Below, piece after piece: positions 49,904 through 56,963 of a DNA stretch of 64,000 nucleotides. The stretch lies in the NCBI RefSeq assembly GCF_000337535.1, contig NZ_AOIP01000015.1:213112-277111 (forward strand). Reading direction: 5' to 3'. Below the pieces are notes generated by a model, which saw only the letters and a program-made list of their open reading frames with translations, did no database searches and was not told where the DNA came from. This DNA is from Natrialba aegyptia DSM 13077 (GTDB lineage: Archaea > Halobacteriota > Halobacteria > Halobacteriales > Natrialbaceae). The first letter of the stretch is position 1. The number at the start of each line of letters is the position of its first letter. The position numbers and the translations under genes were made by a program.

Positions 49904-51826
49904 ATGACTGAACTCGGTGGTTTCCAGGACCGGCTCGCTCGTATCGATCTGTCGGAGGGAACGATCGACTACGAGTCGATCGACGAGGAGGATGCGCAGA
50001 AGTATATCGGTGCACGCGGGCTCGGAGTAAAGCACGTCTTCGACCAGGGGCCGGACGTCGATCCGCTCGGACCGGACAACCTGCTCGCGTTCATGAACGG
50101 GCCGCTGTCGGGCACGCAGGTAACGATGAGCGGGCGGATCGCCGTCTGTACGAAATCGCCGCTGACCGGCACGGTCACCGACAGCCACCACGGCGGCTGG
50201 TCCGGCGCTCGCCTGAAGTGGGCCGGCTTCGACGGCCTGCTCGTTGAAGGACAAGCGGATGACCCCGTCTACGCCTACGTCGAGGACGGCGAGGTCGAAC
50301 TCCGCGACGCCTCCCACCTCTGGGGGGACGGCGTCCACGAAACCCGCGACCGACTCGAGGAGGAAGTCGACGGCTCCTACGGGAAGAACCTCTCGTTGAT
50401 GGCGATCGGCCCCGGCGGCGAAAACGAGGTCAAGTACGCCTGCATCGTGAACGAGGACGACCGGGCCTCGGGCCGCGGCGGAACCGGCTGTGTGATGGGG
50501 TCGAAAAACCTCAAAGCGATCGTCATCAAATCGAGCACGAAGATGCCCCAGCCGGCGGACCAGGAGACGTTCCGCGAGGGTCACCAGCAGGCCATGCAGG
50601 CGATCACGGAATCCGAGGTTACCGCGCCGAACGAGGGCGGTCTCTCGCAGTACGGGACGAACGTCCTGATGAACATCGGCGAGGAGATGGACGGCCTCCC
50701 CACCAAGAACGGGCGCTACACCTCGACCGAGAGCATGCGCGAGTCCGAGGGCGTCGATATCGACGCCGAGCGCGTCTCCGGCGAGAACGTCCGCGAGAAC
50801 ATTCTCGTCGACGAACCGACCTGCCACTCCTGTCCGGTCGCCTGCAAGAAGGAAGTCGAAGTGCAAGCGATGCACAAGGGCGAGGAGATGAACGTCCGAA
50901 TGGAGTCCTACGAGTACGAATCCGCCTACTCGCTCGGACCGAACTCGGGACACACCGACCGCGACGCCATCGCGCTCATGATCGACCGCTGTAACGACAT
51001 GGGCGTCGACACCATCGACACGGGGAACATGATGGCGATGGCCATGGAGATGACCGAAGAAGGCAAACTCGAGGACGAGGGCGGACTCGACTGGGGCGAC
51101 CACGAGACCATGGTCGACATGATCGAGCGCATCGCCCGCCGCGAGGACGACCTCGCGGACCTGCTGGCCGAGGGCCCGCGCCGCGTCGCGGACCGCAAGG
51201 AGGCCCACGACAACTCGCTTGCGGTGAAGGGACAGACGATCGCCGCCTACGACCCACGCTGCCTGAAAGGCATGGGGATCGGCTACGCCACTTCGAACCG
51301 CGGGGCGTGCCACCTGCGCGGCTACACGCCGGCCGCCGAAATCCTGGGCATCCCAGAGAAGGTCGACCCCTACGAATACGAAGGCAAGGGCGAACTCACC
51401 GCCCAGTTCCAGGATCTCCACGCCATCAGCGACTCCTTCGACATCTGCAAGTTCAACGCCTTCGCGGAAGGCATCGAGGAGTACGTCCTCCAGTACAACG
51501 GCATGACCGGCCGCGACGTCACCGAGGACGAACTACTGCAAGCCGGCGAACGCGTCTACAACCTGGAGCGCTACTACAACAACCTCCTCGGCTTCGACGG
51601 CGACGACGACTCGCTCCCCGAGCGCTTCCTCGAAGACGGCATCCGCGGTCAGGGCGCAAGCGAGGGCGAGTTCTGCGAACTCGACGAAATGAAAGACGAG
51701 TACTACGACTACCGCGGCTGGGTCGACGGCGTCGTCCCCGATGAGAAACTCGACGAACTCGAAATCGATGTCGGGCCTGGAACGGGCGTCTCGGCCGACG
51801 ATTCGGCGGCTCCGGCCGACGACTGA
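49904..51826 (+). CDS. aor: Aldehyde ferredoxin oxidoreductase (tungsten enzyme)
   Basis: AOR oxidises aldehydes to acids with ferredoxin, using a tungstopterin and a [4Fe-4S] cluster. The domain-1 motifs GARGLGVKHVFDQG and GRIAVCTKSPLTGTVTDSHHGG, the cluster Cys in CHSCPVACKK, the pterin-binding GIGYATSNRGACHLRGYT and the last Cys in DSFDICKFN are all present. At 640 residues it is full length, with a short acidic tail. Likely roles are amino-acid or sugar-acid aldehyde oxidation. The TAATAAA at 49882-49888 lies only about 20 bases upstream, closer than usual. Confidence 0.95.
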   Translation: MTELGGFQDRLARIDLSEGTIDYESIDEEDAQKYIGARGLGVKHVFDQGPDVDPLGPDNLLAFMNGPLSGTQVTMSGRIAVCTKSPLTGTVTDSHHGGWSGARLKWAGFDGLLVEGQADDPVYAYVEDGEVELRDASHLWGDGVHETRDRLEEEVDGSYGKNLSLMAIGPGGENEVKYACIVNEDDRASGRGGTGCVMGSKNLKAIVIKSSTKMPQPADQETFREGHQQAMQAITESEVTAPNEGGLSQYGTNVLMNIGEEMDGLPTKNGRYTSTESMRESEGVDIDAERVSGENVRENILVDEPTCHSCPVACKKEVEVQAMHKGEEMNVRMESYEYESAYSLGPNSGHTDRDAIALMIDRCNDMGVDTIDTGNMMAMAMEMTEEGKLEDEGGLDWGDHETMVDMIERIARREDDLADLLAEGPRRVADRKEAHDNSLAVKGQTIAAYDPRCLKGMGIGYATSNRGACHLRGYTPAAEILGIPEKVDPYEYEGKGELTAQFQDLHAISDSFDICKFNAFAEGIEEYVLQYNGMTGRDVTEDELLQAGERVYNLERYYNNLLGFDGDDDSLPERFLEDGIRGQGASEGEFCELDEMKDEYYDYRGWVDGVVPDEKLDELEIDVGPGTGVSADDSAAPADD

Positions 51827-51960: not shown

Positions 51961-52344
51961 TCACGCTGGATCTGACTCGCACTCGGATTCCACTCCGATA
52001 CACACCGCCTCCCGAATCTCGAACGCCGTCTCGAACTCATCCTCACGATCCATCCGTCGGCCAGCACGGAGTACCTGCTCTTCGTGTGCCCGGCGAACCG
52101 CCGCGATCTCTCGCTCGCTCATCCCGAGTTCAGCGCCGAGGTCCTCCCAGTGACCCCACTCGACGAGAAACGCCTCGGTGAACTCGTCGGCGTAGAGACG
52201 TTCGAACTCGTGTCGGTAGTGCGCAAGGCGTTGGGAAAGGAGTGCCTGTGCGTCGTCGACGAGTTCAGGGAGGCGCGACGGTGGCACGCTCGCTTTGGCT
52301 GCGGTGAGCAGGAGGACCTGCCCGTCGATGGGGTCGGTGCTCAC
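51961..52344 (-). CDS. Conserved haloarchaeal protein, unknown function
   Basis: A 127-residue, helical, acidic protein: MSTDPIDGQVLLLTAAKASVPPSRL, HYRHEFERLYADEF, FLVEWGHWEDLGAELGMSEREIAAVRRAHEEQ. The middle 'WEDLGAELGMSEREIAAVRRAHEEQ' resembles a helix-turn-helix-like pair. It begins six bases after the stop of the MoaD-related gene, so the two are an operon. I believe it is conserved in haloarchaea next to that gene but cannot name a family. Confidence 0.65.
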   Translation of the reverse strand: MSTDPIDGQVLLLTAAKASVPPSRLPELVDDAQALLSQRLAHYRHEFERLYADEFTEAFLVEWGHWEDLGAELGMSEREIAAVRRAHEEQVLRAGRRMDREDEFETAFEIREAVCIGVESECESDPA

Positions 52345-52350
52345 GCTCGT

Positions 52351-52641
52351 TCAGCCTCCGGCACGCATGGCCTTTTGGGCGAAGGTGTCGACGAGTTCGT
52401 CGAGCGGTGTGCTCCCGTCGGCGTCGTCGGTCGCATCACGTTCGAAAACGATCGTCAACTCGGTAAGTGTCAGCGTCGGTCCGACGTCGACCGATTCCGA
52501 GGTGATCGTCGCCGTCCAGTCGTCGGCTTCGACCACCGTTTCGTCGCCGTCCTCGACTCGTTCGCCGCCGAGGTTTGAGAGGTACCGAACCGCGAGCCGC
52601 TCGGAAATACCGCGAAAGGACCGCTCGATACGCCGTTCCAT
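52351..52641 (-). CDS. MoaD-related C-terminal domain protein (DUF1952-like)
   Basis: The 96 residues begin MERRIERSFRGISERLAVRYLSNLGGERVEDGDETVVEADDWTA and end LVDTFAQKAMRAGG. This agrees with what I remember of the molybdopterin 'MoaD-related, C-terminal' family (DUF1952), a small alpha-beta protein of unknown function. Its position beside a tungstopterin enzyme (aor) supports a pterin-cofactor link. Minus-strand TATA-like CGAATTTATCC (52662-52672) lies about 27 bases upstream. Confidence 0.65.
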   Translation of the reverse strand: MERRIERSFRGISERLAVRYLSNLGGERVEDGDETVVEADDWTATITSESVDVGPTLTLTELTIVFERDATDDADGSTPLDELVDTFAQKAMRAGG

Positions 52642-55324: not shown

Positions 55325-55648
55325 TCAGAAGATCGCCCGAAACGCCACGACGGCGATGACGCCGGTACACAGCGCGAGCAGGATACTCTCGGTCCGCCAC
55401 ATGACGAGCAAGACAGCACCCGCAGCAGCCCACTCCGCCGGGCCACCGGCTGCGAGTTCAGGTCCGATCACGGCGACGACGATCGCGCCGGGGAGTACGG
55501 TGAGGCCCGCTTCGAGACGGTCGCTCAGTTCGAATCGGCGGACGAGCCAGATGCCGCCGACCTTCGTGAGGAACGTGATGAGTGCCATCGCGAGGACGAC
55601 GGCGACGACGAGCGGGTCGAGGGAGAGGGTGAGAGCGTCACTCGCCAC
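55325..55648 (-). CDS. azlD: AzlD-family branched-chain amino acid exporter subunit
   Basis: The 107 residues form about four TM segments in the AzlD pattern, including TFLTKVGGIWLVRRFELSDRLEAGLTVLPGAIVVAVIGPEL. AzlC and AzlD together export branched-chain amino acids or analogues. Translation starts at GTG behind GAGGTGATC, a near-perfect ribosome site located inside azlC; the two genes overlap by 11 bases. Confidence 0.87.
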   Translation of the reverse strand: MASDALTLSLDPLVVAVVLAMALITFLTKVGGIWLVRRFELSDRLEAGLTVLPGAIVVAVIGPELAAGGPAEWAAAGAVLLVMWRTESILLALCTGVIAVVAFRAIF

Positions 55649-56540
55649 GGCGGATCACCTCGACGGTGGCGGCGGCGAGGCCGCCGAGGAGGATGTACCA
55701 GCGGCCGGGAACGAGTTCAGCGGTGATGAGCGCGGTGGCAAGTGAGACGGTCCAGGGGAGGAGTGAGGACTGACCCTCCCAGAGTTCGGCGGCGAGGGAG
55801 AGGAAGACGGCGGTGAGGATGAAGTCGAAGCCGTACGTCGTCGGGTCGCCGATGACGCCGCCAGCGACGCTGCCGACGATCGTTGCGCCGACCCAGGCGA
55901 GCCAGACGGCGATGCCGCTGCCGAGGAGGAACGCGCCGTAGCCGGTGTTTGATTTCAGCGAGCGCATGGTTAGCGCCCAGTTCTCGTCGGCCATGACGAA
56001 GAGGCTGCCGTAGACCTTGGTGGCGGAGAGGCGCTTGAACCACGGCTGGAGGGCGGCACCCATCAGGGAGTACCGAAGGTTGATGGCGAACGTGGTGACG
56101 AGTACGGCGGCGATCGGAATCGGGTCGGCCCAGAGTTCGACGGCGACGATCTGGGATGCGCCGGCGACGACGGTTGCGCTCATGAGTGCAGCCTCGGCGA
56201 CGCTCAGACCGGCCTGGTCGGCCAGGATACCGAACGCGATGCCGTAGCCGCCGATGCCGAGGGCTACCGGGATCGTTTTGAGAAAGCCGGCTCGAAGACC
56301 GTCTCGGTCGAACGTGACGGCGGTGTCCGTTTCGGTTGCGCCGGCTGCGATCTCAGTAGCGGTTGCCTCGTTCTCGGCGGCGGGTGTGGCTGTGGTCGAT
56401 GCCGTGTTCGGTTCGGCTGTGGCCGGCGTCACGTCGGCCGCCGCGTCCTCACGACCGTCTGTCCGCCGGCTCGTGCGTTCGGATCGTCGTGCATCGGCCT
56501 CGCTGTCGGCGTCCTCGTCAGTTTCCGGGTCGAACTCCAT
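55638..56540 (-). CDS. azlC: AzlC-family branched-chain amino acid exporter subunit
   Basis: The AzlC core starts at about residue 80 with DGLRAGFLKTIPVALGIGGYGIAFGILADQAGLS and includes the QIVAVELWADPIP and LRYSLMGAAL segments typical of the family. About 75 N-terminal residues, rich in Glu, Asp, Ala and Thr, form an unusual acidic extension absent in bacterial AzlC. The core of 220 residues is complete. It overlaps azlD by 11 bases. Confidence 0.87.
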   Translation of the reverse strand: MEFDPETDEDADSEADARRSERTSRRTDGREDAAADVTPATAEPNTASTTATPAAENEATATEIAAGATETDTAVTFDRDGLRAGFLKTIPVALGIGGYGIAFGILADQAGLSVAEAALMSATVVAGASQIVAVELWADPIPIAAVLVTTFAINLRYSLMGAALQPWFKRLSATKVYGSLFVMADENWALTMRSLKSNTGYGAFLLGSGIAVWLAWVGATIVGSVAGGVIGDPTTYGFDFILTAVFLSLAAELWEGQSSLLPWTVSLATALITAELVPGRWYILLGGLAAATVEVIRRGE

Positions 56541-56660: not shown

Positions 56661-56963
56661 TCATCGACGGTGGTCGACGCAGCCGCCGGCGACCGGCGGG
56701 AAGACCGAGATGACATCGCCGTCTTCGAGTTCAGTATCCGGGCCGGCCATGTGGGTGATATCACGGCCGTTCTTGAGGACGCTCAGTTGCTGGCGAACGG
56801 CGGTACCGTCCTCGGAGAGGAGGTGGCCATCGAGGCCGTCGTAGGTCGTTTCGAGTTCGGAGAGGACGTCGCCGACGGTGGCGTCGGCGTCGACGGTGTG
56901 TATCCGTTCCTTCTCGCCGACGGCGTCCCGGAACGTGGCGAAGAAGCGCAGCGTGAGTTCCAT
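56661..56963 (-). CDS. MoaD/SAMP3-like ubiquitin-fold protein with masked Gly-Gly
   Basis: The 100 residues show the beta-grasp pattern MELTLRFFATFRDAVGEKER, TVGDVLSELE, LSVLKNGRDIT and GDVISVFPPVAGG, closely like Haloferax SAMP3 and archaeal MoaD. SAMPs and MoaD need a C-terminal Gly-Gly for adenylation, thiocarboxylation or protein conjugation. Here CVDHRR follows the Gly-Gly before the stop, so it must be trimmed, for instance by a JAMM/MPN+ protease. MELTLRFF at 56963 is the family start; 19 upstream in-frame codons are unlikely. Roles are molybdo/tungstopterin sulfur transfer or protein tagging. Confidence 0.85.
   Translation of the reverse strand: MELTLRFFATFRDAVGEKERIHTVDADATVGDVLSELETTYDGLDGHLLSEDGTAVRQQLSVLKNGRDITHMAGPDTELEDGDVISVFPPVAGGCVDHRR

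Follow-up and report, generated by a model that had tools for sequence, protein, structure and literature searches.

We report that SAMP3 of Natrialba aegyptia DSM 13077 is encoded with its C-terminal diglycine covered by a six-residue tail, CVDHRR; comparison with independent genomes confirms that the tail is genuine and that Gly-Gly is masked. The gene lies in a stretch of 64 000 nucleotides that was analysed as a whole (the window; features in Table 1). From comparative sequence evidence, we infer that this SAMP3 is made as a precursor that is probably trimmed after Gly-Gly by a desampylase of the HvJAMM1 type and put to use thereafter, with a tail that probably has no sequence-specific role. 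The SAMP3 of Haloferax volcanii, which serves as the reference, has no need of maturation; about one-third of the sampled haloarchaeal SAMP3 genes encode masked precursors, which likely give the desampylase a second job as a maturase.

Table 1. Features of the SAMP3 locus and its surroundings, in window coordinates.
Feature	Position	Strand	Evidence
SAMP3 orthologue (MoaD/ThiS family), 100-aa precursor	56661..56963	-	ATG to TGA; PF02597, NF041918, TIGR01687 and 2m19 matches
Gly93-Gly94 codons GGC GGC, predicted mature C-terminus and cleavage point	56682..56687	-	PP[VI]AGG in 162/162 orthologues
Masking C-terminal peptide CVDHRR, codons TGC GTC GAC CAC CGT CGA, then TGA	56664..56681	-	Like tails in two sister genomes
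AzlC-like gene, between SAMP3 and partner	55638..56540	-	PF03591, E = 2.1e-37
AzlD-like gene, between SAMP3 and partner	55325..55648	-	PF05437, E = 1.4e-15
P0002, DUF1952/TBP-like (arCOG06308-like) partner ending RAGG	52351..52641	-	Own-genome match, E = 1.1e-24
Aldehyde ferredoxin oxidoreductase, adjoins partner gene	49904..51826	+	PF01314, E = 1.7e-119; PF02730, E = 1.6e-75

An earlier, sequence-only reading had described the gene product as SAMP3/MoaD-like, and profile and structure-based searches bear this out. The ThiS family model PF02597 matches residues 6–94 (E = 1.1e-17; 64.7 bits against a cut-off of 22.5), and the curated cut-offs are likewise exceeded for TIGR01687 (72.1 versus 49.5 bits) and for NF041918, the model that NCBI names SAMP1 (94 versus 60 bits). 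PDB entry 2m19, an H. volcanii-type protein, aligns up to its own last Gly with E = 8.7e-30, as compared to E = 3.8e-8 for SAMP1 (3po0), placing the window protein with HVO_2177 over SAMP1; SAMP1-like and VPSVYGG paralogues have genes of their own in the same genome. HVO_2177 is SAMP3 (PMC4500146), in which the residue immediately before the diglycine is Ala90 (PMC7305310). The 2m19 sequence, 92 residues that stop exactly at PPVAGG and hence have Ala before the diglycine, appears to fit this protein. The orthologous Ubl core and the PPVAGG end are common to the H. volcanii and window proteins, but the former stops exactly at Gly-Gly, whereas the latter is six residues longer. Read on the minus strand, the window gene ends VFPPVAGG-CVDHRR-TGA; the encoded protein thus has no exposed C-terminal Gly-Gly, although its mature form may have one. 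The plus strand of 56661–56963 gave no family match, and a gene on that strand was dropped from consideration.

The sequence-only reading had also held that CVDHRR masks the diglycine, unless close relatives all ended at Gly-Gly and a frameshift explained the extra residues. The reverse was found when C-termini of close relatives were compared: all seven genomes of the genus encode an extension. The tail of Natrialba asiatica (L004, an independent record) is identical to that of the window and that of N. taiwanensis (L005), RVDHCR, is nearly so. The two closest relatives of the window protein share 92–93% identity with it along 100 residues. In four further genomes of the genus the extension is GRPQP, GRPQL, GRP, or a stretch of 19 residues rich in glycine. 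The occurrence of the tail in independent genomes rules out sequencing frameshift and misassembly, as well as an accident of a single genome.

We read 162 SAMP3 orthologues from DNA, 107 belonging to the same family as the window and 55 to the remainder of the class. Gly-Gly is the end of 108 of them, while 44 have tails of 1–19 residues (most of them 1–6) and 10 are fused in frame to a second domain; masked genes number 54 of the 162 overall and 30 of the 107 in the family.

The search for homologues of HvJAMM1/2 that the sequence-only reading had advised was successful. Two Prok-JAB proteins are encoded in the window genome. One (G000:C3:76634-76978) is a candidate desampylase of the HvJAMM1 type, scoring 147.9 bits with the NF041370 equivalog model (cut-off 130), and its JAMM motif, HSHPRGPPRPSETD, is intact and matches the pattern ExnHS/THx7SxxD. 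Its gene is not beside that of SAMP3, an arrangement that is frequent though not obligatory: the protease is on contig C3 and SAMP3 on contig C14. The second, JAMM-B (G000:C31:78588-78899), has a Prok-JAB domain, falls under the desampylase cut-off, and is near universal in the family and in the class; a cytidylyltransferase-like ORF adjoins it (L234, 207–785, minus strand), which resembles the Jab–cytidylyltransferase pairing noted previously (PMC2948915). A single ThiF-family E1 (ThiF/UbaA-like) is encoded. In the proposed pathway, translation would give pre-SAMP3 with its diglycine covered by CVDHRR, and the HvJAMM1-type JAMM/MPN+ metalloprotease would cut after Gly94, releasing SAMP3-GG; the E1 would then adenylate SAMP3-GG, leading to conjugation and/or sulfur transfer.

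SAMP3 and the desampylase are largely present or absent together. In our survey of 125 family genomes, those at least 90% complete comprise 101 with both, none with SAMP3 only, 3 with the protease only, and 13 with neither (Fisher P = 9e-15), protease presence being called here from Prok-JAB E-values, which do not overlap between the two paralogues, and not from NF041370 scores for each genome. The class-wide counts are 232 with both, 28 with SAMP3 only, 20 with the desampylase only, and 61 with neither (P = 3e-28); the sequences are related, so such sequence-level P values overstate the evidence, and the 28 genomes with SAMP3 and no desampylase mean that the partnership is not universal. Both genes are absent in six genera (g2, g3, g7, g9, g11, and g27), which at the genus level makes several independent losses likely. 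Loss of the molybdopterin pathway is ruled out as the cause because MoaE and SAMP1 are kept, in 122 and 120 of the 125 family genomes, respectively.

The association by itself could also be accounted for by the desampylation role alone. The more specific evidence is that masking was absent from protease-lacking genomes, a comparison that covers six genera. SAMP3 genes from desampylase-lacking genomes are masked in none of 15, these being the genes read among the 28 class genomes concerned (the other thirteen are of one genus, g36); by genus, a masked member occurs in 26 of 44 that bear the protease and in 0 of 6 that lack it (P = 0.008). In near-complete genomes, no SAMP3 was masked in the absence of the desampylase: the one masked genome with no JAMM hit, G124, is just 53% complete. 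An independent-pairs comparison of masking with protease presence on the SAMP3 tree yielded only two to three contrasts, a number too small for a test. These distributions also bear on whether the tail might instead be trimmed by a general carboxypeptidase or by another endopeptidase, JAMM-B included. The prevailing tail length of 1–6 residues would suit such enzymes, and JAMM-B is a widespread Prok-JAB protein; yet fusions that extend ∼86–100 residues beyond Gly-Gly also exist and need an endoprotease, and masked genes were found only where the desampylase is present, even though JAMM-B is found in desampylase-lacking genomes with SAMP3 as well. We therefore consider trimming by these other peptidases unlikely.

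The motif PP[VI]AGG is invariant in all 162 orthologues, including every masked one; its conservation in masked genes would be unexpected unless Gly-Gly were exposed at some stage. Tails are short, with a median of 3 residues for the 44 short ones. When the gene context is matched, their median is 4, as compared to 28.5 codons before the next in-frame stop is reached after unmasked genes (P of about 5e-11, for sequences that are not independent). It is thus quite improbable that masked SAMP3 is never matured, either functioning non-covalently or decaying after loss of its stop codon by drift. That account would explain why tails are unconserved and arise repeatedly, and loss of function might be tolerable, given that H. 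volcanii SAMP3 is dispensable for DMSO reductase (PMC4443979); it is at odds with the full conservation of the motif in 54 of 54 masked genes, with the 92–93% identity of the two closest relatives to the window protein, with tails that remain short, and with the want of a masked gene in any near-complete genome without the protease.

Masking is heritable yet labile, as judged from at least 24 state changes by parsimony on the SAMP3 gene tree versus at least 35 with shuffled labels (approximate counts, from a 92-residue gene tree) and from six genera in which masked and free SAMP3 are both present. Neither the sequence nor the length of the tail is conserved among orthologues, and many genera related to Natrialba have none; we infer that the tail has been tolerated and not selected for, and it looks like a decoration, not a dedicated switch. 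In the presence of a protease specific for Gly-Gly, a lost or shifted stop codon would be tolerated, and short, varied tails would come and go. QbsE of quinolobactin synthesis likewise has Gly-Gly followed by extra residues that begin with Cys, and is trimmed by a JAMM protease. The sequence-only reading had noted that CVDHRR, too, begins with Cys, but a QbsE-like signature is not upheld: first residues vary among the 44 short tails (Ala 14, Cys 8, Gly 7, Ser 5, and others) and the sister species has Arg, such that the window Cys is no signature. Unlike for QbsE, moreover, no siderophore genes were seen beside window SAMP3. The need for maturation that the same reading proposed is favored by the comparative evidence insofar as it means cleavage after Gly-Gly; the dedicated control step that it attached to this need is not supported. 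A regulated mask whose maturation controls protein tagging or pterin synthesis is highly improbable in view of the frequent gain and loss of tails that differ in sequence and length and are missing from related species, even though any obligatory cleavage can limit rate and JAMM control of molybdopterin synthase is seen with engineered SAMP1-MoaE (PMC4443979) and natural Deinococcus MoaD-MoaE (PMC8832034).

Masked archaeal SAMP precursors already had a precedent in Caldiarchaeum, whose precursors are cleaved by CsJAMM (PMC6043591). The Caldiarchaeum subterraneum proteins Csub_C0702 and Csub_C1603 are SAMP/MoaD-like precursors cut by JAMM, in likeness to what we propose for window SAMP3. There, one SAMP (C0702) and the JAMM (C0703) have consecutive locus tags, whereas in the window genome SAMP3 and the protease are on different contigs and the cleavage is predicted. 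With linear SAMP1-MoaE as substrate, HvJAMM1 cuts precisely behind the last Gly, both in vivo and in vitro, and it also cleaves SAMP3-MoaE conjugates (PMC4443979), while DRJAMM cuts the natural MoaD-MoaE fusion of Deinococcus (PMC8832034). In both linear Ubl fusions JAMM cuts directly after Gly, as would be the case for SAMP3 here; SAMP1-MoaE was engineered in Haloferax, whereas the window extension belongs to SAMP3, is short, and occurs naturally. If maturation by the desampylase is correct, a masked species mutated in jamm1 is predicted to have inactive SAMP3. The natural variation after the cut site also offers material for learning JAMM specificity.

Masking is not a general trait of Gly-Gly paralogues, a possibility ruled out by their counts. 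SAMP1 is masked in 6 of 48 genes checked, and five of these six genomes also have masked SAMP3, in a sample enriched for masked genomes; the SAMP1 tails are CCSQ (L155), SVERR (L168 and L171), A (L242), SQT (L246), and GRR (L249). The third MoaD-like paralogue, ending VPSVYGG (G000:C31:114033-114311; L003, L173), occurs in 64 of the 125 family genomes and is masked in 0 of 30 checked.

The fused genes point to a further Gly-Gly protein, one without the ubiquitin fold. In 10 of the genomes sampled for the 162 orthologues, SAMP3 and a DUF1952-like domain form one ORF, and in many haloarchaea the SAMP3 stop codon overlaps or almost touches the start of a small DUF1952-like gene. P0002 of the window is a detached homologue of this domain. 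The two are not one polypeptide in the window (52351–52641 and 56661–56963), where they are distinct genes some 4 kb from each other with azlCD and an ABC transporter in between; AzlC is in the flank of 70 of 121 SAMP3 loci. P0002 had no match to the Pfam DUF1952 profile, and a PDB search by profile with the partner found nothing either. The AlphaFold2 model of P0002 (pLDDT 88), searched with Foldseek, has as its best PDB match the C-terminal domain of 1v8c (E = 4.4e-4; TM 0.71), a MoaD-related protein of Thermus thermophilus that combines MoaD and DUF1952 in one protein. Its domain order is that of fused haloarchaeal SAMP3, and a natural fused SAMP3 protein aligns to it over the whole length, including the internal PPVAGG and the C-terminal Gly-Gly. 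In the AlphaFold2 model of a natural fused SAMP3 (pTM only 0.51), the sole stretch with pLDDT <50 is residues 91–94, Ala-Gly-Gly-Ser, as expected for an accessible joint.

No paper on DUF1952 turned up in a literature search. Makarova and Koonin (PMC2948915) listed, among possible Ubl analogues, a Halobacteria-specific TBP-like family (arCOG06308) that has a C-terminal Gly-Gly and is encoded next to MoaD, and the partner ORF fits this description. The family was described as unique to Halobacteria, whereas Thermus has a distant homologue that is fused to MoaD. Our analysis adds that the partner can be fused in frame behind SAMP3 and that its Gly-Gly (RAGG or RSGG) is exposed in all 77 with a complete end. 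We tentatively raise, as an unlikely reading, that SAMP3 and its partner might constitute a two-Gly-Gly module, encoded as a single polypeptide in some haloarchaea and Thermus and as neighbors in many others; JAMM would cut after the internal Gly-Gly to release SAMP3-GG and a second, non-beta-grasp protein, whose own Gly-Gly would be activated by E1 and serve as a tag or a carrier of sulfur. The aldehyde ferredoxin oxidoreductase gene beside the partner is consistent with the known MoaD–AOR linkage (PMC1779556). Also adjoining the partner gene is a 127-residue ORF (51961–52344, minus strand) that has no Pfam match and is conserved in 29 SAMP3 loci.
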